Assembly (NCBI RefSeq): GCF_021018805.1
Contig: NC_086251.1
Location: forward strand, 37,952,767-38,016,766
Source of the DNA: Prinia subflava
Taxonomy: Eukaryota > Chordata > Aves > Passeriformes > Cisticolidae
Direction of reading: 5' to 3'
DNA: 64,000 bases
Shown piece after piece: positions 1-56,300 of the stretch. Both the position numbers and the translations under genes were made by a program. How positions within the stretch are numbered: position 1 is the first letter of the stretch; each line of letters begins with the position of its first letter. The notes under the pieces are model-generated. The model was not told the DNA's origin. It saw only the letters and a program-made list of their open reading frames with translations, and ran no database searches.

Positions 1-654
1 CGGACCAGGGTTTGGAGGCAGGGTGAGCTCTGCTGAGCTGCTGCTATCCCTGGACACTTCCTGGGATCCTACAGGATCCTAAACTCAAGGAGCGACTCAG
101 AAACTCTGAAAGGATCTGACCATGGAAGAAGTTCTCCAGGTTTCCAAGGGCAAAAGAGTCTCAGGCATTCACCTAGCACTGTATACTGTCTACATTGCTC
201 ACATTTTTTAAAAAGTCGAGTAAACTAACACTGCTCTCAGACTACCACCCAAATTCTCTGTAGTCAGCCTCTGGGCACAGCAAGGAGAAAACAGAACACT
301 GAAAGTTAAGGAAACAAATCTGAAACTGCCATAGGATCACAACTGTCCTTGCAGTGAGCATCTTTGCCTGTTGTAATAATTAACAGAATTAACCTCCTTT
401 CCTTGTATGCTTAATTAATCTACATATGTCTGTGCGCATGTCAATTAACACTTTTCTCCAGTACTTCAAGTGCTTCTCTCATCTTCTGCAAACGCAAAAT
501 CAGGCAGTAGTTTTATTTTACATCCTCCTCTGACCCCAAGCTGCTCTCGGCTCTGTGCCGTTCCCGGGTCGTTGTGCCTCGCACGCACACAGCGGCAGCA
601 CGGCCCCGACGCGCCCGGCGTGCTGTGAGGAGCAGGCATACCATCACGGCAGCA

Positions 655-778
655 CCCCAAATCCCAAAGGCTATTGCCAGCGAATTAGTTCAGTCAAGGA
701 TATTCAGATTAAGCCTCCAATTAGCAGCTGTAAACATGCGCAGTGCGCCGCTGTATCAATAAAGGCTGCTCAGTTTAG
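655..778. promoter_or_regulatory. AT-rich core with homeodomain-like sites
   Basis: Between the two CpG-rich arms lies CpG-poor DNA containing GAATTAG, GATATTCAGATTAAG, CCAATTAGCAGCTG (a TAATT-type site abutting a CAGCTG E-box), TGTAAACA (a forkhead-type core) and ATCAATAAAGG. This density and variety of developmental factor sites is typical of conserved non-coding enhancers. Conservation itself cannot be seen from one sequence. Confidence 0.4.
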
Positions 779-848
779 AGGGGCCGCCCGGCGCTCGGCC
801 CGGCGGGCTGGCTGCGGGCCAGCGCGGGGACGGCTTAACGACAGCGCT

Positions 849-876
849 ACGTGCGGAGCGTGAGGCCGGCGGCGTG
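849..876 (+). promoter_or_regulatory. Cluster of three RCGTG hypoxia-response cores
   Basis: The cores are ACGTG at 849-853 (within TACGTGCGG), GCGTG at 858-862 and GCGTG at 872-876. All have the same orientation and start 9 and 14 bp apart. Clustered same-strand RCGTG motifs are typical of HIF-responsive elements. The first shares its TACGTGCGG context with the promoter site at 14171-14179. Confidence 0.55.
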
Positions 877-1094
877 CGGCGAGCCCCGCTCCGACAGCGC
901 CCAGACACGGGAAACCCACACAGGCAGCCACACACGGGCGCTCAGGCACTGCTCCGCTCTCCTGAACGGGGCTGTCCCTCCCTCCCGCGCTGCAGGCACG
1001 GAGGCTTACCTCCCACTCTTAAAAAAATACTGTCTAATTACATTTAGGGTTATTTTTGCCTTTTGCTGAAGCCCTCTTTCATCACCCAGAAAAC

Positions 1095-1375
1095 TCTTTG
1101 AGGCCTCTCCTCTCCCCAAAGAACCAAACCTGGCCAAGCTGCACTAATGAGAAAGCATCCCAAGCAATTGATGCAGATGGGGAAAGCATCCCCTGTAATA
1201 AGCCCTGGGGGACATCGTGACAAGCATCACCCCCGCAGAAAAGCAAATTCATAAATAAGTGCAAGCTCATTAAGGAAATCTGTAAGGACTGTCCCTGTAT
1301 GCTCAGTTTCTCAGCAGGGAATAAAAGCCTGGTAACCAGCACAGACATCCTCTGAGGAACACTTCTCATCTGTGG
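1095..1375. other. Intronic stretch of possible regulatory DNA
   Basis: This follows the CpG-rich block and is free of recognisable repeats. It contains ACTAATGAGAAAGC, AGCAATTGATGCAG, CAAATTCATAAATAAG and CTCATTAAGG motifs in balanced-composition DNA. It may continue the upstream enhancer block. No coding potential was recognised; the 95-codon minus-strand ORF here resembles nothing known. Confidence 0.25.
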
Positions 1376-1635
1376 GGTAGAAAGATAACCTCACAGTTCC
1401 TGAAATATTCCAGCCCTTCATTCTTCATCAGCATATCAGACCTTTTCAGTTCTGCTACTAGCCACCCAGAGGATTACACCACTTTTTTTTTTTGTTTGCA
1501 ACATTTAAAGAACTGCCTATTTTGATGTTCTTGTGGCTGCACTAATAAAGGTCAGGAAAGACAGCCACAACACAGGCAAACTTTTGCTGCTGTTGTAGCT
1601 GCCAACATCTTTTTCTTATTATTACCCATTTATTT

Positions 1636-2050
1636 TTAGCCTGTGGGCCCAGGGAAAGTGAGCGACAGTGCCCACGAGGCTTTTATCAGCTCACATTCGG
1701 TATGTAGCACCTCCAGCGCCGGGGTGCTGCCCTGGACATCCTGGCAGGCAGAGGTGGCGAGCCACCACCTTGAAGCAGTGTGCCAAGGGGACAGGAGGCC
1801 CCAGCTGCCAAGAACAGCCCTTCCTTGAGGCCACCACCCAGGACGCCTCCGGTGACCCCGCATGATCCTGCCACACCAGAGGCAGCACCACAGGTGGGGG
1901 AGATGTTCTTTGCCCTGTGTGGCTCGGTGAAAAACACCCTTCACTGTCGGACAGGAATGCAGGGTTCAGAGCAGCGCCATCACACTTGGCGGGTACCCCA
2001 AATATGCCCCAATGGTCCTCCCTGCCAGAGCCCTCGGGGCTTCTGAGGCT
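1636..2050. other. GC-richer intronic stretch without a recognised gene
   Basis: GC content rises here and produces overlapping ORFs of 61-102 codons in several frames on both strands. That is the pattern of chance ORFs in GC-rich DNA. None resembles a known protein, and they disagree in frame. There is no repeat I can name. Confidence 0.35.
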
Positions 2051-5000
2051 GCTAAGACATCGCTGTGCTGAATAAACAGAGAGATCAGCGTTCTTAAGTG
2101 CTTGTTATCACAGCAGTAACACCAAATTAATGCTAATTGATGAGACCAGTTATCTCCTATGTTTATTTAGAAGAAAGCCGTCTCACTATCCACACATCTT
2201 CTGCTCACCCACACCTTTACAGAAGACCTTGGACTAGATAACAGTAACCTGCATAAGATTTTGAATGAATATTTAAGGGTAAAACCCATTAAAATTATCT
2301 ATAAGAAATTACCATCAGAAATAATTTTTACTATGGTTCAATAATGTGTAGTCTTTACCTCTAAGTCTTTAGCTGCACATAAAGTTGTACTGCTCTGTCT
2401 ACACATGCACTTCACAAGAGTGCAATCCCTCAGTTAAAGTGGACAGATGTGTATTCAGTGACACACCATCCTTCTGTGCAGGAAGGGAAACAAGATATTC
2501 AGATATAAGAGAAATTCATAATAATAAAACTGTGCAGCTGTTCTAAGGCTAGGCAATAAAATGTATTGGTAAAAAAAAAAAATCTGCCTAAGTGTTTTAG
2601 TGACCTCTCTCCACCATGTACACAGTTGGTACTTGCAGCACTAAGGTATGCGTAGACAGACACTCAGCAACTCTGAGCAAAGCAAGCATGCATAGACAGA
2701 CGTGCACACACCACAAACTGACTGCCAGCCTTACATCTGCGTGCCTTAAAGATATTCCCAAAGGCTCTCAACTCCTGAACAAGGAAGTCTGCTCCTTAAC
2801 CCAGCCATGAAAATTAGATTCTGGATTTTAACATGGGCTCCTGAATTCCCACTTCCCTTTTTCCACTGGTCAAGTGTCTCCCATGGATTTATGCTGCCAC
2901 CACCTGACAGAAGAGATCAACCCAAAGGCCAGCTGTGTTGTGGCCACTGACACAGGCTTCAACACTCCTGCTGGGGCAGTGACCCTGCACAGGGACACAG
3001 CCATGCCTGACAGCTTTCAGCCTGCTCACACCTGCTGCTCTGCTTTGCTGTAGTCCCCTCTGGAGCCTTACTCAGTCATTCCCACCACTACAACTCACTG
3101 AAGCAGCAGCCCTTAGGAGATTTCTCAAGGCCTAGTTCAGGACTGAGTCTTATAGCAATAATGTTCTATGGCATCTAAGGTGGTTTTTGCAGGAAGCACT
3201 GCAACTGTTGAGCAAGGGAGGCAGTCTCCCTGGTGTGAGTTCAGGATGTTTCCTGAGGATGCAGAAAGCCTGGAGTGTTCTTTCTGGCTCACTTCCCTCC
3301 TTTTTCCTCTTCCCCTCCATAACCTTTCTTCTGGCAGGTGATGTGACAAGAGTGGTATGTACACAGAGTCACCACAGGGGAAGCCAAGGCTGAGCCAGGC
3401 TGGAGGCTGGACAGAGGCTGCTCTCCCAGGATGCCAGCTGCTTGGGCAACCAGAGGAAGCAGCCTCATCCCTGCCTGTTCCCTGGGATGCAGAGGAGAGC
3501 TACTGACTGCACAGGCATGACAGGCTGTGGTAAGAGCAGGGTAAGAAACCACCTGGTGGGGGTCCTGCAGCTGGCTTTGCTAGAGATACGGGGTACAACT
3601 GCACCTCTGTGGTGGGAAGCACAGAGGGGGAAGGCAGGACAGATAGTCCAGGGGGAGGCAGAGCTATAGGGTTACATGTGCCCATTTTGGTGTGTACTAT
3701 GTCTGCCCATAGCTATGTTCATCATTGGCACAACCAGTGCCTTTTCTAACCACAGCCAAAACATTGTACTAATACAGCTTATAACTAGCAGCAGTAGCTT
3801 CTACAGATGGTAAGTACTGAAACACGCTTTTAACTAAGTGCCAGCAAAGAAAAAACAATGTATTTGCTTCAGTTGCAGACACCCAAGTGTAAAAAAACCA
3901 AAAAAAACCACATCAACTACATTTTTACTCTTGCCAAGAAATTATCAGTGCAAATGTGAGACTGCATTGAGCATTTAAGTCACAAGTTAAACATCAAGTT
4001 ATGACCTAAAATATCTTGATAAAATGCACAACTCTGACACTTCAGTGTTTGACCACCATGAAATGTTGAATTACACCAAATTTGGCAATGAGGACCAGCA
4101 TTCCCAAATCTTCTCACCACTCCTTCACAAAGACGAAGTCTGTAAAACAGTTAACCTGGCAGTGACCCTTCCTGTTGGCCTGCTTCAGAGACACCACGCA
4201 CGTGCTCCATACAGCAGATGACAGAGGGTAAGTTAATTTACTGAGGTGGAAACATTGGTGATTATTGTCAAAAACAGAGTTGCCAATACATTCTGGGGGA
4301 CTCTGTCCTGTTTGTGCACATCTACTTATATGACATGGCTTTTATGTCTTAATAGCAGGACATGTTACAGCATTTATGGTGAAGCTCATCCTTTTTCCAC
4401 TTTTCAAACCACTTCTACCAGATTTCCTGTGGGAAATCAGAAGGGGAAGGTGCAGTTAACACATACAGTCTTCAGCAACAAGCACAACACCCTAGGACTG
4501 CTAACAACCCAGGAACAGGCAAATTGAGGACTAATTGCCACTGCCCCCCTCCCACCACTTCTTTAACACCTCCTCTCTCAAATACTCCTGGTTCTGCTCT
4601 ACTTTTTCTACCCCCATGGTCCAGTGAAGGGCTTTGCAAGATGCTTTCTTCATTCCCTGGAGTCCCAAGGCAGTCAGGAAGCTCCAAGCTGACCTCCTCC
4701 ACCAAAACCTCTCACACCCAGGCTTTTCCCATTCCATATGGCATTCCCTACTATACACTGCCTATCCCTCTGCATGCATTACTGGAATAAGTGCTACTAT
4801 TAATGGTATTAAGACAAGTTTGCCATAAGACAGTCAGTTGCAAAGATCAGATAAAAATCATAACTACTATCTGCTTCATCTAATAAGGTTCCTTCCTGCC
4901 TCGCAAGAGACCACATAAAAGATGACCTGCATTTCAAACATAAGAAAAAAAACTATACAAAGACCAGGGACAGCACAAGAAATGCAACTTTTCCTGGTGT

Positions 5001-7116
5001 TTTCTAAACAGTATTCTAGTATAGTCTAAGCCAAGCACCAGAAGATGTGCTTCAGGTCCCATTGATCTGAAAGAGCCTTTAATAAAAAGCAGTTAAGTAA
5101 ATTGCTGAACCAGAGCCAAAATTTTAAAAACATTTGTCTTATCACTTTGTATAAAAAATTACAGTGCAAGAACACATAAGCAATGATTAATTATATTATG
5201 ACTTACAGACAGGAAAAATGCAGACATATATCTTGTTTGGATTTTCAGGTCCAGAAAGAAAGCACAGAAAACAGACTATTTTGACCAAAGGATTCCCATG
5301 AACTAGATAGACAAAAGATTCAAAATGGTTATCTTTTTTTGCTACAGAGTAGGATCCAATTCTCTGATGTTTGGCAAAAGACATGGCTACTCTGCCATTT
5401 CCAACTGCAAAGCTTTGGACAAACTGTCCTGTTTCCAGTCAATGCAGATAGAGTGCTATGTTGTACTCCTGTAATTTACACTACTCATTTTTATCTGGGT
5501 GGCTAAACATGAACATTTAGTAAGCCTCTGTGGAACCACTATGGTCAGCAAAAATCTCTTGCATTTCTTTATTTGTGGAAAATCAGAGCAACAAGTAGGT
5601 TGTTCAATCAACTGCTTTCTACTAAGTGCTTTGCATGTTGGCACTAAGTTTATTCACCTACTAATCTTATCAAAGCACAATGTCAAGAGAAAAATGACTG
5701 TAGGGGAAAATGCTCCTTTCTGTCACTGAGAGATAGTAGATGCCTATGTGTGAGTGATGGAGGGGAAACAGCTTACAGCTCTCTCCAGATCATTCACAGG
5801 AATGATCATGAGTGGTGTGCTGACGGGATGACGTGCCTGTGAATAGTTTAAACAGTAGAAGATAGATGATTTACTTGGCATGAGCCTCCTTCATGATCTT
5901 ACTTCACCTCACTGACTGAACAGAGACCGTCTTGCTTTTCTGACCAACTCTGTAATCTCTCCTCAAAGCAATAAAAGGTCTAAACCAAATTGTTATGTGG
6001 TGTTATGCATCAGTCAAAATCTTCAGTCAAGCCCCACCAAGTTCTGTACCACTGCATCAATTATTTACCCTGGAGCCCACCACAGCAGACGTCAGCCACA
6101 GGCACAGGTGTCAGAAGCAGTTTCCAAAACACCTCTTCCCAAGACATCCTCTACTAATAAACCTTACCAATAAAGCCTTCTCACAGAAGCTTAGGGGATG
6201 TATTGTTGGCATCTTTCTAACAATGTTCCTTCAGTTTTCAGCTTTGTGACAGAAGGATTACAGTCATGAAAATCCAACCTAGGGCTTTAAATTCCCTCCA
6301 GCTGGTATGCACACATCCTTTACATCCTTCTCCATAGACATAAAACCAGTAACACTTACTCCTAAGCTTTCCTTTCTAACCTCCTCATTCTCTCAAGCCA
6401 TCCCCTGCAAGATGGGTGAGTGCTATGGGGCCTGCTGGTGCCAAGGGACCACTTGCCCCTGACCTGTTACACAATGGGAAAAGGCAATCCAATTGCAAGA
6501 GGAGCAGAAAAAGTGAATACCTCAAAGAAAAAAAACAAGAAAGTACCTTGTCTTAGTAAGTCATCTTGAAACATTTGATAGAAGTATTGATCTCTTCCAA
6601 GTGTATCGAGTTTGTTCAGGAAACATCAAAAGCTCAGCTAATTAAAAATGCACTCATGCTTGGAGCATGGTGGTTTTATCTCCTCTCTCTCTCATCCCTT
6701 CCACACACGTATGGGAGGGACTTAAGTACTGTTGGACACTACCGCCTCAGGGAAAAAAAAAAAAAAAACAACCTGTGCAATATGGAAGAGGATGGGGAAA
6801 ATACTTCCATGCAATAAATCAAGCAAATTTCTCAGGAAGCAACATGCAGGATAAGTGTGTTGACATTGAGCCACCATACAGATAAATTTGGAAGTCAAAG
6901 AAAGAAGAGTTTACAGTGAAATCAAATAAAGACATTGGGATTAACACAGCTGGAATCCTTAATGCAAAGTAACAGGGACTTTTACTGTGTACCTCCTGTA
7001 CTGCATCAGTGTTATGAGAATCAGTGTCCATTTTAACATATACTGCTATTAGCAATGAACTGTATGTAATGGACTGAATTATTCATTAACAATTACCTTG
7101 GGAAAAGGCGTACAAA
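2051..7116. other. EGLN3: Intron 1 interior, nothing recognised
   Basis: AT-leaning intronic DNA with short homopolymer runs (A-runs near 2571 and 6751) and no coding similarity, RNA gene or identifiable transposable element. A GC-richer patch at about 3380-3690 yields only conflicting short ORFs. Confidence 0.5.
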
Positions 7117-7333
7117 TATTAATAGCAAGGATCATTAGGAATAAATTCTTCGCAGAAAGGATGATTAGATATTGGAATGGGCTGCCCAGGGAGGTGATGG
7201 AGTCACCATCCTTAGAGGTGACTGGATGTGGCACTTAGTGCCATGGTCTAGTTGACATGGTGGTGTTCAGTCACAGCATGGACTCAATGATCTCAGAGGT
7301 CTTTTCCAAACTAATTGATTCTGTGATTTCATG
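7117..7333 (+). mobile_element. CR1 LINE, 5'-truncated 3' end
   Basis: Contains the typical CR1 3' region: a GAATGGGCTGCCCAGGGAGG block, GTGGCACTTAGTGCCATGG, and a tail with GAGGTCTTTTCCAAACTAATTGATTCTGTGATT. CR1 is the dominant avian LINE, and most copies are short and 5'-truncated like this. It carries the GTGGCACTTAGTGC signature, which the copy at 57288-57716 has in the opposite orientation, suggesting related subfamilies. It has no coding capacity. Confidence 0.92.
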
Positions 7334-10156
7334 GCCAGCTCTCCTCCCTCCCAAACTGCAAGCTCAGCGGGACAGGGCACTGAACTCTGAATCTTGTGAT
7401 TTCCTCAGTGGCTTTCCCAAGGATACTCCACCTTGCAGTGCCGCACACACCCCCGTGAGTACAAAGGACAAACACTCCCCATACACAGAGGCCTTAATGC
7501 CACCTGTATTAAGTCACACTGGCATTCAGTGAGCAATGAGTCCTCACATGAAAGCAAACTGAGAGGCACATACTTATTTAGGGCTCGCAAGTGATCAAGC
7601 TATTGGCCAGCACACCAGTAAGGCAACCTGTGCAGGTCCCTGGCAGTAAGAGCCCACATGGTAGCAGCAAGAACTGCTGCCAGAGCAGGCACGGCAATGG
7701 ATAAGAAGTTACTGTAGAAAATGCATGACCAGTATAGCAGAGATTGTGGAAAACTTCACTGCTTCGCCCCCACCGTGTAACACCAGAGTCTGGCAAGACT
7801 CATGAAGAGCTGCTGGACTGCTAAACTACAGACAATAACAACAAAAAAATTGCCCTGATGCCACAAACAGATGCACAAACACTGGATAAACAGACCATTC
7901 ATACTTTTACATTGCCTGTGAGCACAAATTTCCTGTCACCTATAGGATTCACCACCTTCTGCCTCTCTCTGGGACTGTGGCTATAAAGCACGTGGACAGG
8001 CTCCTGGTACAGTGTGATAAAGGTCACTGGGTGGATACAGACTTCTCTGGCCAGAGGGAGAAAGGACGACCAAGAGAAGCCACCTGGCTGCCAAAGGCTC
8101 TGGTGTAACACATACTGAAGGCAGCATGTTTTTGCCACTGCCTACCATGAAAAAAGTTTGCCAGTGCACTGCAGTCAGGTTTTTGAGAGGTTTTTGAGAT
8201 GATACATAACAGCTACTGAATTCAAGCTGCTTGCAACTTCAACACCTGAGCATTAACTCAAACACCATTCCCTAGAGGCTTCCCATGCTTCTGAACCTGC
8301 TTACAGATATGTGCATCACTGTCTGTAAAATATTGATCCATTTCTCCAATACCCTGTCCCTGCTGAAAGAAGAATTTATCTGAAAGATTCTCCAGGTGCC
8401 TCTTGCAGAGAAGTAGTTCTTTTGAAAGTTTCAAAAGTCATTGAGAATAATTTGATGAAAAACAAAAACAAGTGTTAATATGCCCAAGTTTATACTCATC
8501 TGATTGTCAAGTAAAAATTATACATTCCTGTGTATAATTAACCAGGCTAACTAATCTTGCCTGACAAACACAGATATAAACATCAGCTTTGACACTGAGC
8601 CAAAGCAACCACACTAGGATCTGTGCCAATGCTGAATTCTTCAGTCTCATATCATAAAATGACTTGTCTGCTGTATTTACAGTTCCAGTGGCTCTGGACT
8701 CTGCCAGCAGCTGGCCAGAAGAACAGATTTGAACTTACACATTATGCCAGAACATGTGCATTTGATTAGAAGAAAGAAATGATGCATATTTCTTCTGGAT
8801 GGTGGTATTCATCAGACCTCCCATTGCAAACTAATTGCAAGGCACATTGCTGCCCAAGTATCAAAAATACTTTGTAACATACAATAAGCCAATATATCTC
8901 AAGAGGCAGTACCACTCTTCAGCCTACTACAGTTATAGGTTTCTCTTATCCCACTCTTCAAATCAGTATCTCAAATCAGAAAATTCAGCATTTCACTGTG
9001 TTTTAATTGCAAAGGATAGAATTTGAATGTTATAGAACAGCACTTATCTTTCTTCATATATAAATGCAAAAATACCTTACTTCATTACCTGAGTTATGAG
9101 GAACTTTGTAAAACTACTCCTGTGACATCTCATCCATTTCTTCAATCCTCAGGAACAGAAATCTTGATAACAACCTGCTAGGCAGACCGTATTTCAAAAC
9201 CTAGGAACACCCTATCATGTGATAGGCAGGAGAACCCACTCTGGTTTCCAGCAAACACTCACTAGCTATGAACTGTCACCACAAAACACCTACTTCTCCT
9301 GTGACTATTACAGAGGGTCCACCAGGGTGGGATGAACAGGGTGGTGTTATGATAACAAGCAGAGAAAGCAAGTTTTTGAAAAGGTTTACATCCCATAGGG
9401 TCTTCTAAATTAACTAATCCCACCTTGAAAACACTTTTTTTTAAACTTCAGGCCATACACTTGACACTGAATGTGAGCAGTTCTGTTCTGAGCTGAAGAC
9501 ATCAGCCACAGGCTTCCTTCAACACAGAGCAGCTCTTAAGATTATGAATTCTTGCTCTATTTTCTGACCAGCAGGACTCAGTGGTGTCCAGCAGGTGCAA
9601 GATGGGCTCAAGGTCCCCAGTGGCAGCCCAGACATGGATTCAGCCCTTGGTGGTACCCAAGAGGGTATCTGTGACTCAGAGCAGGACGGGTGCAGAGTCC
9701 GCTCAGAGTGCAGCCACACCAGTTCAAAGTACCTTCCACCCTGCCCTGAGGACCAACGCAGCGCTGGCAGCACGTCAGGCGCTGACTCAGCCGAGGTGGC
9801 CCAGGGCAGCAGGCACTGGTGGCATTGCTCTGGGACCTGCCTACTCACAGGGAGGGCTGCCCTTCTCCAGCAGAGGCACAATGAGAAAAGGGGAATACCA
9901 CAGCCTCCTAGCAGCAGATGAGTTACCCAAACACCCCACTGCAAACACAACTTTAACATTTCCACACATCAGCCAGCCAGCCTGGCTCCTACCATACTCT
10001 GTCCCCTGCCTCCTCACATCAGGGACTTCCAAGATCTCATAGGCTCTGCAGAATCTTTAAAAAAAAAAAAAAGGTAAAAAGCATCCCCTCAAGCCCCTGC
10101 AAGTGCCAGTTAACCCCAAGAAGGAACTTTGGGACCTGGGGAGTCAGAAGCTGCTG
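7334..10156. other. EGLN3: Intron 1 interior, nothing recognised
   Basis: Repeat-poor intronic DNA. A GC-richer patch at 9560-10040 gives overlapping ORFs of 148-153 codons on opposite strands. Neither has a recognisable domain or splice structure, so I treat both as chance. A short A-run lies at 10059-10071. Confidence 0.45.
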
Positions 10157-10200
10157 CACATCACCCTTTCACCTGCAACACATCACCCTTTCACCTGCAG
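10157..10200 (+). repeat. 22-bp tandem duplication, two copies
   Basis: The unit starts CACATCACCCTTTCACCTGC and is repeated head-to-tail, with 21 of 22 bases identical (last base A versus G). A recent slippage duplication is likely, and copy number may vary between individuals. Confidence 0.9.
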
Positions 10201-12949
10201 TCCCTGGAGCACCACCTGATCCAGAGGGCACACCGGGTGACTGGCCTCACAGACCAAGCTGCAGCTTTGCTTCTGACCCCAAACACCCATCAGCTTTTCT
10301 CCATCAAGTAAAGCTCCAGCAGAGTAGTGACAGGTCCTCAAAACCAGAGTGACTCCTGTCCTCAGGCCAGAACATCCCTCTGCACAAGGACATCAACCTT
10401 CTCACTCTAAGGAGAAGACTGAACTTGGGTCAATAACGCCTCAGTGATGTCCTTAACCACGTACCTACTAGAAAAGGGGAAGCATTGTATTGTCTTACTA
10501 GAAAATAGAGATTGGTTGATGAGAATGCAAAAGCCAACAAGCAGTGCATTGGGTCTGTCAACCTTTAACCAGCTAGTATTTTAAAATATGACTTACACCA
10601 AAGATAGGTTTGTATCACTGGTCTGCAAAGATGAAAGGTTACATTTCACGATCAGCTCTCAAATGTCAACCAGCAGCTTCTATGAATATCCAGCACCCTT
10701 GAAAATTTTACTTCTGTTCATTCCCTTTGATGCAATCTTAACTTTCTTGAAATGCTTCTGAAATTAATTTGGAAACAGCACAATCCTAACTGTCTTGTTC
10801 CTCTCATTTAGCTGAAAGGAAAATTTCCTTTATTGGACAAAAGTTGTTCAGGTCCTATTATGTTTGTGTAGCTGCAAAAATATGAAGCACTTCACACTAA
10901 ACTGACATAATCTGACATAAATTCATTTACTAGGCAAATCTCTCCCCTTCTTCCAATACTTAGGCTGAAGACTAAAGTCATACTACTTATTTAAAAATAT
11001 AAACCTTTAAATATTGATAGGCTGATATAAGTACATTTTCACGACAAATTGGGTTCCCATGTACCTAAAGGCTTACATTTTACACAAATTGTTCTGAATT
11101 CTTAGTTCTAACTAATAACTATATCCCAAAACAATAAATTACAACAGCACATGTCCCACAAAGAAGTTCTGGTCCAGTTGCCCACAAATACCTCACATCC
11201 CTACGAATGTTAAGCTGTGAAAGTTTTGTGGGCATTCATTTACATGTATAATCCGCCAGATAAAATGAAAATATGTTGAATTTAAATTTGGGATTTGTGT
11301 GTATGCATTCGTAAGGCTTCAGATGGTAAGGAGAATGGGAAGGTTTAATGGTGGAGGAGAAATGTCTTACACTGACATGGGAACCTGCATGTACTGCAGT
11401 AGTCATTTGTTAGTCACAGCAATATTCTTCCTGCTGAAGGCGTCCCATATCTCAGTTACAGACAGCAGCTGCTATTCCAGGCCTCACATATCCCATAGTA
11501 CTTATTATTATAACAAGGGGATTGGCTACTGCTAATGTCTGATGAAAAATTCTCTGCATTTGGTTTTACAAACAACATTGAGATGCTGAGTCCCTTTCAG
11601 TCCTGGACTGTTGTGTAGCACCTCCACGCTACACTGTTTGGAGTCTGACAACTTTCACATCAAAGCACAAGAGCCAGAAGTCTTTATACCAAATAGCTTG
11701 CTGCCTATTTATAAAATAAGTTCTGTTATTACTATTTGTCCAAGGATGCCTTAAAAACCACCAAAAACTCTATTTTAAAATAATCTCTACCATATAAAGT
11801 CACTGCCCAAAAGACCCTTCTTCCCAGCCAGCACCAACATCCTTCATTCATCCAGCTGATTTGTTTTTCAAATATCTTGAAAAAAGGCTGGACAGCCTCC
11901 TTTCGCTCTAATCCAACTTTTAAGCAACTCCCCTCAACATCCATCCCTACACAGAACCCTTCACTCCCCATACACTCTCTTAGCCAGAAATGCACTTTCA
12001 GTAGCAAACAGGTGAACAGAAGTCCCTCAGAGAAAGGATGAGGATGACCTTAAAGGTGTGCCAAGGCAGGATGGTTATTTATACCTCCTCATACTAGGCT
12101 CTCAACAGGAATAAGTGAAATCCAGTCTACCCACATTTTAAAATATATCTACCCAAGCTTTAACTGAATTGATGATCAATAATTATGCTGAAGCATAAGG
12201 AACAGTGTTTCAATCTTTTATTATTCTCACTACTGTATCTAAATGTGTTGGGGTGCATGCACAGGTTTCAGTGTGTTCCCAAGCAAACATCATTCTACTT
12301 TTTTCTTCATTTTTCAGGGGGAATCTCAGTACCACTCACACATTCCCTTACTTCAGTGCAAGTTAGGATCAAAAGAAGTGCCTAATTTCTCCCTATTGTC
12401 ATTTTTTAAAGGTTTCATTATTTTTGTTTCTGGCATATCTCTAAAAGCAGTGGACCTTTTGAAAATGTACCATGTCAACTCAGAAATAAAGAAATAAGGA
12501 TGTTTTCAGCATTCAGGACAACACAGTAAACTTAGTTCCAAGCTAGTTAACTTTGCCATAGCAAAAGAGACAAGAAAAGAAAAGTTATCCTCAAACTAAT
12601 GTCATTGCAATTGCAAATAAACTTCACTGGGAAAGAAACTAATAATACAAGTGCCCTCTCCATTTCTGAGAAAGCCTAGAAAAAAAATCCTTTCTCTTTA
12701 AAACAAAAGTTTGCTGTGCTCGAACTAAACATCCTGCTGTATTCCATGCATATTCAATGCAGTAACGATAACCTCTTTAGCTGTAGAACGGCGACAAGAG
12801 TTGGAACCTCGAAACTGTTTAGGATACTTCTACTACATGGGCGAAAACATCCAAATAATCGGATCAGAGCCGGGTACGTTGGCAGGGAGGGGGTGGAGAG
12901 CTTGCTCACCCCGAAACTCAGTCAAGCTCAGACGTTTTCGAGGGGTACG
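10201..12949. other. EGLN3: Intron 1 interior near exon 1, nothing recognised
   Basis: AT-rich intronic DNA with no coding similarity, RNA gene or nameable repeat. CpG frequency begins to rise only past about 12780. Confidence 0.5.
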
Positions 12950-13477
12950 CCCGCACAGGTCCACCTGTCCGCACCTGAGGTGAGCACAAGCAGAAGCGGG
13001 GGCAGCCGGCTCCGGCCCACCGCGAGAAGCGAGGAGCCGCCTGCAGCCCCCGGGACGGCTGCGAACTGACGGCCGCTGTCACACAGGCGAAAAGGCGAGG
13101 GACTGGCCGGGCTCCGGCAGCCGAAGAGCGCGGCGAAAACCCAGCAAGGGTAGCCGCGAGCAGCCGCCCCGGAGCGCTGCTGGTACCGGCGGGCGAGGGA
13201 CCCGCAGCTGGCGGCCCCGCTGTCAGCGGGACTCCCGCCCCGGGCCGCAGAGCGGCTGCCGTCCCGGGAGCCCCTCAGGCAGCGCACGGCGCCTCCGCCA
13301 CCCGGGGCGGTGCTGCGGGACAGCCGGAGCCGCAGGCACCGCCGCCGACAGCGCGGACGCGCCACGGGCGAGCGCCCGTGGAAAGTTTCGGGCCGGTCCC
13401 ACCGGCAGCTGCGAGGCGGGTCGGACCGGCTGCGAGCCGGTGCCAGCGGGCGGACAGGAGGTCGGGGCCCCGCGGAC

Positions 13478-13483
13478 CCTTAC
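13478..13483 (-). other. EGLN3: Splice donor of EGLN3 intron 1
   Basis: On the minus strand the exon ends AAG and is followed by GTAAGG, a strong U1-complementary donor. The predicted protein loses EGLN3 similarity exactly here: after RSK the reading frame gives VRVRGAPTS, unlike any EGLN protein. This fixes the exon end and shows that the remaining exons lie at lower coordinates or beyond the window. Confidence 0.94.
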
Positions 13484-13840
13484 CTTGGATCGCTCTTTCA
13501 CGTAGTACTTGCCGAGCCGGCTCCCGCAGTACATCACCAGCCGGTCTATCAGCGTGAGGAGAAAGTTGATGGCCTCGCAGCCCTCCTCCGTGCCTCCGAT
13601 CCACTTGATCTGGTCGCCGCGCAGGTGTCGCTTGGCGACACCGCGGCTGGGGCCGGCCAGCTGCCCGTCGGCCAGTTCCCCGTCGCGGTGCATCCGCTTC
13701 ACCCGCTCCAGCACGCAGTCCCCCACCACCTCCCCCAGGAAGTTGTCCAGGTAGCAGAAGCCGATGTCGTGCAAGCAGGGCACGATGTACTCCAGGGCGA
13801 TTCTCTCCAGGTCCAGCCTCATGATGTGCCCCAGCGGCAT
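13484..13840 (-). CDS. EGLN3: EGLN3 (PHD3) coding exon 1, N-terminal 119 residues
   Basis: EGLN3 is an oxygen-, iron- and 2-oxoglutarate-dependent prolyl 4-hydroxylase. It marks HIF-alpha subunits for VHL-mediated degradation, and it is itself a HIF target (family knowledge). The minus-strand translation starts MPLGHIMRLDLERIALEY and continues through CYLDNFLGEVVGDCVLERV, KRHLRGDQIKWIGG and LIDRLVMYCGSRLGKYYVKE before ending in RSK. I recognise this as the EGLN3 N-terminus, nearly colinear with the human protein as I remember it. The short 5' start without a MYND zinc finger separates it from EGLN1. The exon is 357 nt, exactly 119 codons (phase 0), and ends AAG|GTAAGG, which matches the human exon 1 boundary. 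The start ATG has G at -3 and C at -1 and -2. The HxD...H iron ligands and the 2-oxoglutarate-binding Arg are encoded by later exons that are not in this window. The most diverged part is the linker around residues 49-67 (MHRDGELADGQLAGPSRGV). No frameshift or internal stop is seen, so the gene looks intact here. Confidence 0.97.
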
Positions 13841-14171
13841 GGCGCGGCGGGAACGGGCACGCCGCCGCTCTGCCGGAGCCCGCGCTGGGAGGCGATGTCC
13901 GTGGAGCCGCCGTCCGCTCCAGGCCGAGCCGGGCAGGGGCTCCGCCGCGGCGCGGGACCGGGCGAGGCGCGGTAAAACTTTCGCCGCTGCGGGCTCGGCT
14001 ACGCACCGCGGCCCGGCGCTGCGGGAGCGGCGGTGCTGCCGAAGCCCTGCGCTGCTGCTGCCGCCGCTGGCGCCCGGCAGTGTGCGGGAGTGCCCCGGGG
14101 CGCGGGGAGGGCGCGGCAGCCCCGCCCGCGGCGCGGAGCGCAGACGGCCCCGCGCGGTGAACACGCCGGCT

Positions 14172-14176
14172 ACGTG
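14172..14176 (+). promoter_or_regulatory. Candidate HIF-binding core (ACGTG), promoter
   Basis: An ACGTG core in the context TACGTGCGG, close to the inferred start site. HIF-1/HIF-2 bind RCGTG, and TACGTGC is a favoured context (established knowledge). The same TACGTGCGG string occurs in the intronic element at 848-856. Occupancy cannot be judged from sequence. Confidence 0.5.
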
Positions 14177-14199
14177 CGGGATGTGTGCTCGCGCCGCCG

Positions 14200-14205
14200 C
14201 ACGTG
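14200..14205. promoter_or_regulatory. CACGTG E-box / hypoxia-response core
   Basis: Palindromic CACGTG in the context GCCGCACGTGGGAGG. It could bind HIF or other bHLH factors such as MYC/MAX, USF or CLOCK/BMAL1. It lies 24 bp beyond the TACGTGCGG core, at the inferred transcription start region. Confidence 0.5.
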
Positions 14206-14229
14206 GGAGGGGCGCCCGCCGCGCCGCCA

Positions 14230-14281
14230 TCGCCCCGCCCCCTCCCCGCCCGGGCAGCCAATCGCGTGGGGCGGGGCGGGG
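14230..14281. promoter_or_regulatory. EGLN3: Core promoter elements: GC boxes and CCAAT box
   Basis: On the plus strand there is a GCCCCGCCCC GC box at 14232-14241, CCAAT at 14258-14262 in a GCAGCCAATCG context, and the overlapping GC-box run GGGGCGGGGCGGGG at 14268-14281. SP1/KLF proteins bind GC boxes, and NF-Y binds CCAAT, usually 60-100 bp from the start site. That places EGLN3 initiation near 14150-14200 on the minus strand and implies a 5' UTR of roughly 300-350 nt. The start site is inferred, not seen. CCAAT is in reverse orientation relative to the gene, which NF-Y tolerates. Confidence 0.7.
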
Positions 14282-14315
14282 CCGGCCCGCGGGGAACGCG
14301 CGGCGAGGGCTCCCG

Positions 14316-14321
14316 CACGTG
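14316..14321. promoter_or_regulatory. CACGTG E-box / hypoxia-response core
   Basis: Palindromic CACGTG in the context CCCGCACGTGCGCGG, giving the HIF-like GCACGTGC on both strands. It is about 115 bp upstream of the previous E-box relative to EGLN3 transcription. Another RCGTG (GCGTG) follows at 14330-14334. Confidence 0.5.
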
Positions 14322-14620
14322 CGCGGGGGGCGTGGCCCGCGGCCCCGCGCGCCCCCGGAGCGGGCGTGGGCAGCGCCATTGAGGAATTCTCCGCCGGCAT
14401 GTCGGCTGCGACCCCCGCCGGGCCGCGCCACCGCGCCGCGCCTCCCCTCGCCCTCTCCGCCGCTCCGGAGCGCCTGGAATAGTCCAAGCGAAGTTTGCTA
14501 ATGCCGCGCCGCGGCTCGCCGGCCGTCGCTTACCTCCGGCTACCGCAGCGGCAGTTTCAGCACCATACGGAACAGTTGCAGTAAGCGGCAGATACAGCTT
14601 TTCTGGGCGACGAATGCACT

Positions 14621-14633
14621 GCTTTATAAAAGG
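14621..14633. promoter_or_regulatory. TATA-like sequence, readable in both directions
   Basis: The plus strand reads GCTTTATAAAAGG. TATAAAAGG at 14625-14633 is a near-consensus TATA box for plus-strand transcription, and the reverse strand gives TATAAAGC. It is isolated at the upstream side of the CpG island. It could serve divergent transcription or an alternative EGLN3 start near 14595, or it could be chance. Confidence 0.3.
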
Positions 14634-15173
14634 TTTACACAGCAAAATAGCACTCCCCCGAATTATTTATCCCAAAGGGCCCGCCAGGTTGCTTGGCTCT
14701 GGTAGCAGGAAACATCCCCCGGACCGTCGGCGGCTTCGTGCCGCGGCGGGACAGCTGCGGGCAAACCGAGATAAACTTCGTTCCAGACCAAACCCGCCTT
14801 TCCCCCGTGACACCTGCCGGTAGCACCGTCCCTGCACCGGCGGCCACGAGGATGGTCCCGCGTCGCTGTTCCCACCGGGCAGCGTGCTTTCACGTGAAAT
14901 GCCTCCTGAGAAGCGAACGGCGGAGAACCGCTCAGCTCCGCGCACACACGCAACGTGCCCGGGATTTGCTAAACAAACAAGAGGAGCTTCCACAGAATCC
15001 AAAGCCAAAGCAAAGCCACGTTGCGGAGAGGTGCTGCCTGCGGCCACGCCGAGCGGGACACGGCGGCCGTGCCCGAGTCTGTGAAATTACCGATGCCACA
15101 CGCAACACAGCCCAGCCGAGGGCATCCGTCCTGCTCGGCCCACCGTGCTGTCCCGCGCGGCCCGGGGAGTCCG

Positions 15174-15216
15174 CACACACACACACACACAGACGCACAG
15201 ACACACAGACACACAG
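15174..15216 (+). repeat. (CA)n / (CACAGA)n microsatellite
   Basis: Nine CA-type units lead into an imperfect CACAGA-like repeat. It sits at the outer edge of the EGLN3 CpG island, roughly 1 kb upstream of the inferred start site. Confidence 0.93.
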
Positions 15217-15523
15217 CCCCTCTGCCCCTCCACGGAGGGCAGCGCGGGCCGAGCTCCGCCCGGCAGCCCGCGGGGCCGGGTCCGTGCTGCCCGCCCGTGG
15301 GGGACGCGCCCCGCGGAGCGATCAGCGCCCGGCACGGCGGCACGGCACGGGGCTGACACGGCCTCGCTGGAATCCGGCACATTTCACCCCCAAAAAAGGC
15401 AAAATCTGTGCTGGTTCTTTTCTCCCCCTTCACGTCGCGAATCCTGACGGGATTACAAGCAGTCCGTGCTGCTGATGCTGCTTGAGCTGCAAACTCCAGG
15501 CCCCGGCATAGGCAGGAGCGGGT

Positions 15524-15537
15524 CACGTATTCCACGT
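15524..15537 (-). promoter_or_regulatory. Tandem ACGTG cores upstream of the CpG island
   Basis: On the minus strand, in gene orientation, AACGTGGAATACGTGACC contains two RCGTG cores 9 bp apart. It lies about 1.3 kb upstream of the inferred start site, outside the CpG-dense region, so these two are less likely to be CpG background than those inside the island. A CACGTG at 14891-14896 also lies upstream. Confidence 0.35.
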
Positions 15538-15589
15538 TTGTGCTCCTTAAATCCAGTGGTATCTACCGCTCAGTGCATAGCACTAAGCA

Positions 15590-15960
15590 CAGGTCTAATC
15601 CTCTGAAGTTATTCCCTGACAGCTCTGTCGAGAGCCGAGCAATATTACATCAGATAAATTCGTATGTTGTAAGATAGGGACCGTCAGAGGACCTTATTTG
15701 ATTTAGGTACACACTTCACATTAAAGTGGGGTTATAATTAATAAGATACAATTCTGAATCTTATTAATCCCTTAATGCTTATCCGAAAAATCAGTCATGT
15801 AGGATAGGTTAAGAGCAGCTGTCATAATCAGCAAGGGATGCAAGATTAGTTCAACTGCAAAATCTCAATGTTACGAAATTTGGATACACTAGGAAATTAA
15901 TGCATTATTGTACTGTTCACACATTTTTATTATGTCAAAGCTGTTATGTGCCAAACCCCT
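15590..15960. other. Upstream AT-rich element with paired homeodomain-like sites
   Basis: Just outside the CpG island is a repeat-free segment rich in TAAT/ATTA cores (TTATAATTAATAAG, CTTATTAATCCC, CTTAATGC). It includes an 11-bp perfect inverted repeat, ATTAATAAGAT at 15737-15747 and ATCTTATTAAT at 15758-15768, around a 10-bp centre. This resembles a cis-regulatory module. No gene is present. Confidence 0.3.
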
Positions 15961-16588
15961 TTGATTTTTCCCCTTTTCTTGTTCATACACATATGCAAAT
16001 ATACAGTCCTGTACCAGAATCAAGTATTTGTAGACGCTGAACTTCTAGCCTTTGTATCAAGTGTAATGATGCCACTTTGACAAGTCAAGGGCAAAGAGGG
16101 ATGCCTTCTGGCAGTAGCTGAATTTGGTCATTTAACTTTATTTCACTCCTTCAGAAAGTTTGAAATGATGAGTTAGACTGATGCCAGATCTGCATCAGAA
16201 AAAGTCACCTTGAGAGTTAGAGATTTGTCTGAGAAAACTGAGTCCACAATCCCACTTGCAGAGTGATGTTCACAAAGCTCTAAATACTTTTATTCCTCCA
16301 GCACTGATGTCCTGTCTTCCTCAGGAGGGCATTTGCTGCCCTTTGTTGGCAAATCGGGTTTTCTGGTGGATAAAGTGTTTTCTCCCTCAAAGCATGATGT
16401 GCTTTTCATGCTAGCACTTGCAGTAGCAGTGAGATGCATTACTGTTCTACGTGAAGATAAAACATCAGGAGGAACAAACCCCAAGAGTAGTGATTTTATT
16501 TAGTTTTATTTACCGGTGCTTTTTTACTTCATCTCTGTCCCTTGATGATGATAAAGCCCCTTGCATGATGGTAATGAAGGTGTGTTAT
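15961..16588. other. Upstream flank, nothing recognised
   Basis: Non-coding DNA without an identifiable repeat, RNA or gene. Confidence 0.45.
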
Positions 16589-29289: not shown

Positions 29290-29366
29290 ATTCTAACACC
29301 ATTAAAGTGATCTTAAAGGTCTTTTCCAACCAAACTGATTTTATGATTCTTTGGTTCTGTGATTGC
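29290..29366 (+). mobile_element. CR1 LINE, extreme 3' end
   Basis: GATCTTAAAGGTCTTTTCCAACC followed by a TTTTATGATTCTTTGGTTCTGTGATT tail matches the CR1 3' terminus with its degenerate octamer repeat. Only about 75 bp of the element is recognisable. Confidence 0.75.
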
Positions 29367-53345: not shown

Positions 53346-56300
53346 TATTTTACCCATTACTTTTTTCTTTTGGTCTTGTTTGTCTCCCAGAATATCTCAT
53401 GGTGAAGTAGATGGAATTTTATTTCCCAAGGAAAACAGCTATTTAAAATAGAAAAACTATTGTGTACACAACCCAAATTTTACCCTTCAACCTTCAATCC
53501 ATGAGTGACCCCTCATTTCCACTAATTATTCACCATGCAGACTCTAGTCTAGATAGATTTACACCTGTAGGCATCTCAAGCCACAAAATACAGGTCAATT
53601 CCTCACAGCAATAAAGCTAGCAAATAGATTAATTCATTCACTCATTCAATCATAGAATTTCTTGTAGATTTTGCATAATGATTCTGCAGAACTGAGTATC
53701 AGGATGGTTTGGGGGTTTTCCCCTTTTTACTCATTGCAACATCGGGAGACACTTGCAATGTGTGACAAAACCAGGAAGCAGTTGGTGGTAACAGACAACT
53801 AACTCTGTGTGCACCTCTCTCCCCCTCACACCTCATGACAGAGCAACTCTTGTCTCTATCATCAGCACCCATATTTTCTTATCCACGTCATAAAACCCCA
53901 GATGCATCTATATCACACACCCAACAGTTGCTAAATACCCACATGCAACAGCCAAAGAGTTTGGCTTCAGGACCTCAAACTCATCAACATGAGGTCCAGC
54001 TGCAAGATTAAAACATATAAATTATACTGAGGCAAATAACCATGACTTCAGAACTTTGAAAATTATTGCCTTCTTCAGGTTAGAGATTGTACTTGTAGGG
54101 AAGAGTGTGGGAAGTTCCAGATCAGTGGAAGACCCTGGCAAGCAGGCAGTTTCTCAGTTACAAAGACAGAGCCATCCCTGCTTTCTTCCTGCAGAAGCAG
54201 ACCAGGATTTGGGGATGTCTGTGCTCAACTGTAGCAAGAACATCCCTTAATAACAAAATAAGGTCTAATTTATTTAAAAGGGTTAATTTGCATCAGAATA
54301 CTGTGCTACAGTCTGTACCAGCATGCCTGCTTACAGTCAGCAGCATCCCAGCACTTTCTTCCACACAATATTAGCGAACCACTCCAGTAAAGTTTGAATA
54401 ACTGCAGACTGAGGCTACTTCCCATGTGAACCATTTCTTGAAATAAAGACTGGTCTGTCTTCACTGGAGCAGAAACCAGATAGGAACAACCATAGAAGCA
54501 CATCCATCACAGGAGATTCACTGCTAGTATGAGGCATTATGAGATTCCTGAATATTCCTCAGTCTGGGACGAGGCCCAAGCTGCAGCAGAGAGTAGAGGC
54601 TGATACAAGGAAATCAGATGACCAAGAAGTCATGAGCAAACACATGCTAAACATTAAAGAGACATCCACATTTATGCTGAAAGCACAAAGAACTTAACTT
54701 GCAACAGCAAACTAAAAGAGGAGAGATGCACCTTTTAAAAAACAATTAAATGAGAAATCTTTCTCCGTTTTTTTGGGGTTTTTTAATAAATAACTTCCAT
54801 ACAACAAGACATTTTCATTAATTTTTTTCCTGAGAACTACATCTAAAGCACTCAGAAATAAATAATGAAAACACTGGTTATTAAGGAGAATTAATGCAAT
54901 TGCAGAACCGAATGGTTTAGTGATAGAAACACTTACTACAGAACTACCCTGCACAACACTGATTGGTTCCATATTCACCCATCTGAATAAAATATGACAT
55001 TATTGTGTTATCTGAAACTTTCACTGGTTCAATAGACTCCTTAGACAAGGCCTAGTTTCCTGGTTAGATTGTAATCCTTCAATAAAGAATGGCAAGGCAG
55101 AGCTATGCATGTGTGTAGAGACCCATAGATTCTGAATTTTTTTATGGGATGGGCCCTGAGTGTTATAATAATTGTGGTGTGAGCTCAGCTTGAAATACAG
55201 TTTTTCAAACTCTTCTGAAACCAAGCAGTTCACTTATCAGGAAATGAAATGCTCTGGTAATGAGGAGACATGAAGCATAAATGACACACACTCTTCTTAT
55301 CATATTTACACATTACATGTGTAATGACATGGAGCTCTGCGAGCAGCACAAAAGGTTGAGTTTAGCTTCCTATGGGGAAAATGCTCCTGCCTGGAGTTTA
55401 TTGTGTCTAATATTTGCCTTCAGAGTTTGCCCTGAGTACTCATCAAATCCTCTATACAGATGGATTCATTGGTGTAGAATACTGTCAGGCTCATATTGGA
55501 ATCTTTTCTCCCGAAGGGTTAGCAATAAGACTCACTTGGACTCTAATAATCTTAAAAGTTCTACACTTCTCCATTCAAAGTGGCTAGCCAGTTCAAAATC
55601 TACTGAGTATTCTCATGTTAGAAATCTAGGCTAATTCTACTAAAAAAATTGTCAAAGTTGTTAATTCCTGAAGGGATTGCTGTCTGTAGATTCTAAGACA
55701 CTGTTAGAGACATATTTCTTTACATATGGTATATTGTACAGCTAGGGCCCTGGTAATCCGTGTTATCTATATTCCCATCTAAATAATCTAGTCCTCTTGA
55801 GAGGAGTGGAAAAGTTTTGTAAAGAGGATCTTATTTTCAACAGGATCAGGATGACTTCTACTGGCCATCATGAGACAAGGCATCACAGGCCCTTTTTCAA
55901 AAAGCATTGCCAAAAAAAGTTAGGCGTGGGTCGAAATGAAAGTTATGTATCTTTTCCACAGCTCAGAGTTGATAGAGAAGTGAAACAGAATGGAGAGAGA
56001 GAGCAAGACAGCATGTGACCTGTGGCTTCAAATAGACACTGAGGGTGCACTCAGCTGCACTGAAGCTGCCAGGAATTTCTGACCCTATGTATCTCCAGTT
56101 CCTGGAAAGTCCCACCAACAAACAGCAAGAACACATTCCCTCTGATAAGATTCTGTAATTTAGCAAATATTTCTCTGTGTGTCCAACAGTTTCTGCTGTT
56201 TGTTTAATGATGATATAGAATACTTGGCTCTGCACCTGAATTGGGGCAAGGTGAGCAGGCTCATTGCCCAAGTACAAATGTGCTCTCATTGCATCACATA

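Follow-up and report, generated by a model that had tools for sequence, protein, structure and literature searches.

A small CpG-dense block in what appears to be the first intron of EGLN3 (PHD3) in Prinia subflava very probably carries the orthologous counterpart of the HRE that functions in intron 1 of mammalian EGLN3, a HIF feedback enhancer. The block lies near one end of the window, that is, the whole 64-kb stretch of DNA that was analyzed, and the part that can be aligned with the human element is a short segment within it:

541-985, no strand: isolated block rich in CpG within EGLN3 intron 1, a small CpG island by its CpG count, GC and observed/expected ratio
832-869, plus strand: segment putatively orthologous to the human EGLN3/PHD3 intron-1 HRE, 30/38 identical, ungapped

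Similarity to the human EGLN3 HRE

The earlier note on this DNA had held that mammalian EGLN3 possesses a functional, HIF-bound element in intron 1, and this agrees with a 2007 study of HIF-alpha target selectivity (PMC2360163), in which an HRE is defined in the middle part of intron 1 of human PHD3 and the site is both HIF-bound and hypoxia-active. The human reference employed here is a 38-mer, namely the HRE mutagenesis oligonucleotide as printed in the available text of that paper, with its stated wild-type core restored, and it was slid along both strands of the 64-kb window without gaps. The alignment with mammalian EGLN3 intron 1 that the earlier note had proposed as a check was thus obtained over 38 human bases, and the 30/38 match at 832-869 is unique in the window, with the next best position on either strand reaching 22/38. 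Among the 79 RCGTG sites with enough flanking sequence, the best of the 78 others scores 20/38. In simulated sequence of the block’s first-order composition (30 x 64 kb), the best score over 1,918,890 positions on one strand was no higher than 25/38, and the number of chance matches of at least 30/38 expected on both strands of the window is 2.9e-6, given the block’s composition and independent sites. With both cores fixed, 20 of the 28 remaining positions agree with the human sequence (P = 9.3e-7).

These figures bear on the proposal that the block is an ordinary orphan CpG island, or a GC-biased patch, in which RCGTG words arose by chance and have no role in hypoxia. The total number of RCGTG words is indeed what composition predicts (5 on both strands of the block vs. 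a simulated mean of 2.96; P(>=5) = 0.18), but the 30/38 match to the human HRE goes beyond CpG richness, and the larger EGLN3 5' CpG island attains at most 22/38; almost no weight is given to this explanation. In common with the human/mouse EGLN3 intron-1 HRE, the window sequence has the same gene, the same intron, an ACGTG core followed 9 bp on by GCGTG, and an antisense orientation (gene on the minus strand, core on the plus strand). Together with the 30/38 ungapped identity, the retention of both cores, their spacing and their strand bears the marks of common descent with the human HRE, at a corresponding location in one and the same gene, as judged over 38 human bases, and lends support to the conserved hypoxia enhancer that the earlier note had put forward. 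The window’s third GCGTG and the remainder of the CpG block lie outside the 38 bases compared.

For the wider flanks, the comparison covered the two end primers of the 1.1-kb fragment from human, which find at best 10/16 and 10/15 identities within positions 1-2500, so that conservation between human and window may not reach beyond the core. A scan of viral_contigs and genome_contigs for the conserved core returned 0 and 0 hits, and neither 18-mer of the human HRE occurred among the open-literature matches listed. Likewise, no avian EGLN3 HRE was named in the titles or abstract openings of the matches listed from the open-licence literature, which is no proof of absence, and further EGLN3 HRE sequence was not found in the available portions of PMC2837373, PMC5536434, PMC3454324, PMC7387696, PMC4642629, PMC3828400, PMC11310289, PMC5663546 and PMC12720325.

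Position within EGLN3

The gene itself is represented in the window by its first coding exon and 5' region:

13484-13840, minus strand: EGLN3 coding exon 1, 119 codons (phmmer against PDB; donor)
12900-15530, no strand: EGLN3 5' CpG island/promoter region, with 336 CpG and an observed/expected ratio of 1.02
14169-14179, plus strand: second copy of the 11-mer GCTACGTGCGG that holds the intronic core, located in the EGLN3 5' CpG island (exact search)

In a phmmer search of PDB, the 119 residues encoded by 13484-13840 matched chains of EGLN1 and EGLN2 (best E = 1.9e-27), and a GTAAGG donor follows the exon. Its start, MPLGHIMRLDLE, is one that we take to be that of PHD3, so that the gene would be EGLN3 rather than EGLN1 or EGLN2. 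Pfam gave no match for the 119 exon-1 residues, an unsurprising result if the residues covered by the oxygenase domain model are encoded in later exons. For those later exons, no tblastn match was found in the window at E up to 1 (with a human PHD2 sequence as the query), and 541-985 is therefore placed in intron 1, with everything from 13483 down to 1 apparently intronic as far as is visible within the window. The main core at 849 lies 12.6 kb past the donor. Pescador et al. are said, in 2005, to have put the human EGLN3 HRE at a distance of 12 kb, and the window’s main core stands 13.0 kb past the ATG. The human position is described as the mid-part of intron 1 in the available portion of PMC2360163.

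Only two exact copies of GCTACGTGCGG exist in the window, namely the intronic core and 14169-14179, and the latter is a candidate promoter-side HIF site. The RCGTG site at 14172 ranks second of the 79 against the human HRE, at 20/38, and for human PHD3, PMC3030558 points to a putative promoter HRE within the CpG island. Upstream of EGLN3, the minus strand at 15524-15537 carries two tandem ACGTG cores spaced 9 bp apart, as in the intronic pair; the pairs at 849 and at 15524-15537 are the only 9-spaced same-strand RCGTG pairs in the window. Elsewhere, four matches to degenerate CR1-like 3' tail repeats were located at 7317-7334, 29337-29362 and 53642-53659, with 0.26 expected, which is in keeping with a bird or reptile genome, and exact tandem CR1-tail octamers were absent from the window.

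The CpG-dense block and its RCGTG cores

An isolated CpG-dense block 13 kb into EGLN3 intron 1, with three same-strand RCGTG cores in 28 bp, had been described in the earlier note, and each of these features is present. CpG islands are commonly delimited by a GC content >0.5, a CpG observed/expected ratio >0.6 and a length >200 bp, and the block, at 445 bp, has a GC content of 0.661 and 46 CpG, for an observed/expected ratio of 0.95. Around it, the same ratio is 0.20 (1-540), 0.27 (986-2500) and 0.10 (2500-12700), and no other 445-bp stretch, in a comparison set that left out the block’s own neighborhood and the EGLN3 5' CpG island (starts 1001-12299 or >15600), contains more than 16 CpG. This contrast between block and flanks suggests that the block escapes germline methylation. 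Its composition is uneven, with a GC content of 0.417 and a single CpG at 661-720, and a scan with consensus motifs picked out the following:

661-778, no strand: middle part, with the factor-like words CCAAT/TAATTG, CAGCTG, TGTTTAC, GCGCAGTGCGC and ATCAATA

This middle part possibly supplies accessory sites, or an enhancer core, for other factors. Coding or RNA content was considered for the block and rejected: Pfam gave no match for the three block ORFs that were scanned of the 16 listed (ORFs of at least 30 aa), and Rfam gave no match at gathering scores anywhere in the window. None of the four tandem-repeat rows for 1-16000 overlaps 541-985, and no repeat of at least 14 bp was found inside 400-1100.

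An intronic HIF-responsive element in a PHD gene is also found in Drosophila fatiga, with an GCTACGTG core, although, in contrast to the element considered here, the fgaA intron-1 HRE serves the nearby fgaB promoter (PMC2928329, in the part available). Common descent of the fly and vertebrate elements is unsupported: the fly 17-mer agrees with the block at 12/17 positions, while two unrelated places in the window reach 13/17. Against the human site it scores 13/17 by ungapped count, for which the available text of PMC2928329 gives 14.

The fly arrangement does provide a precedent for a second reading, in which the block would itself be a promoter, alternative or unannotated, for a short EGLN3 transcript or an antisense or noncoding RNA, and the HRE would belong to that promoter instead of acting as a distal enhancer. 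Small CpG islands are often promoters, and 501-1020 holds the NRF1-like GCGCAGTGCGC and one GGGCGG, but the same interval possesses no TATA[AT]A word. The lack of Pfam matches in the three scanned ORFs of 16 also counts against such a promoter, with no bearing on noncoding RNA, and in human, the fragment is able to drive a heterologous promoter (PMC2360163). A dual role is conceivable. On balance, the promoter reading is thought improbable, and the distal enhancer remains the preferred one.

Within the block, five RCGTG cores were located:

849-853, plus strand: ACGTG, the main HIF core, contained in GCTACGTGCGG; it aligns with the human core that, when mutated, leaves the HRE inactive (motif scan, human oligonucleotide)
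858-862, plus strand: second RCGTG core, GCGTG, 9 bp after the first, the human spacing being identical (human oligonucleotide)
872-876, plus strand: third RCGTG core, GCGTG, just beyond the end of the published human oligonucleotide (motif scan)
582-586, minus strand: further RCGTG core, GCGTG (motif scan)
618-622, plus strand: further RCGTG core, GCGTG (motif scan)

The three plus-strand cores at 849, 858 and 872 together span 849-876, and three same-strand RCGTG starts within 30 bp occur at no other place in the window. Such a cluster, on either strand, appeared in 0.6% of 4000 first-order simulations of the block (P ~0.006). Given this rate and the ordinary RCGTG total, the cluster alone is mildly unusual for such CpG richness, and is only suggestive, rather than proof, by itself.

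The main site reads TACGTG, and in this it resembles classical HREs such as those of the EPO 3' enhancer and VEGFA, which likewise combine a TACGTG core with nearby accessory sequence. It differs from them in having a second same-strand GCGTG 9 bp downstream, and the nearest CACAG ancillary-type word lies at 919. The identity of the main site also bears on whether the element, if orthologous, might be HIF-independent in this species, serving chiefly as a target for bHLH or bHLH-PAS factors other than HIF that recognize ACGTG-like or GCGTG cores. RCGTG-like cores are common to several bHLH-PAS factors; however, TACGTG is not the CACGTG E-box, and sequence context outside the core has been kept with the HIF-bound human site, leaving HIF-independent use highly improbable.

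Proposed function and significance

As a HIF feedback enhancer, the element would be expected to operate as follows. In hypoxia, HIF-alpha/ARNT dimers would bind ACGTG at 849, probably also GCGTG at 858, and possibly GCGTG at 872; the bound intronic enhancer would then increase transcription from the EGLN3 promoter 13 kb away, and the additional PHD3 hydroxylase would keep HIF in check during prolonged hypoxia and upon reoxygenation. For this species, these steps, from HIF binding and looping to hypoxic activity, are predictions from orthology. The human 1.1-kb fragment confers hypoxia inducibility on a heterologous promoter, an activity that is lost on mutation of ACGTG, and in RCC4 cells, antibodies to HIF-1alpha and HIF-2alpha both capture the human site (PMC2360163, in the portion available). 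Induction of PHD2 and PHD3 has itself been described as feedback that limits HIF in long hypoxia or upon reoxygenation (PMC2928329).

The CpG-dense and apparently germline-unmethylated DNA of the block would keep the RCGTG cores free of HIF-blocking methylation. According to the available text of PMC7384226, HIF dimers have a 15-fold higher affinity for unmethylated than for methylated RCGTG, and this preference provides a reason for a CpG-rich, unmethylated setting. The unmethylated state, like the roles assigned to the second and third cores, is presumed here.

In renal cancer cells, the human intronic fragment, when placed in a reporter, missed the HIF-2alpha dependence of the native gene (PMC2360163), and in MCF-7 cells, contacts with several HIF-bound sites are reported for a set of promoters that includes that of EGLN3 (PMC5048371). 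The intronic element is therefore probably not the whole control of EGLN3.

It is tempting to suggest a lineage-specific extension of an ancient two-core HRE, in which a third core and a private CpG island would form a HIF array proof against methylation, 13 kb into the gene, with the identical GCTACGTGCGG of the promoter island as its partner, such that EGLN3 feedback would stand ready in all tissues rather than just in those whose HRE is demethylated. This extension is a speculative one, and it is considered unlikely.

Taken as a whole, the comparison links an unannotated patch of the genome, through its sequence and not merely its position, to a human HIF enhancer of proven function. The element is the counterpart that one would expect of an element known from mammals, and the mammalian mechanism is unchanged by it. 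If the element came down to both lineages from a common ancestor, the enhancer behind HIF-PHD3 feedback would be older than the split between mammals and birds/reptiles, some 310 million years ago. As such, the segment offers a precise 38-bp target for tests of hypoxia feedback in birds, high-altitude species included.
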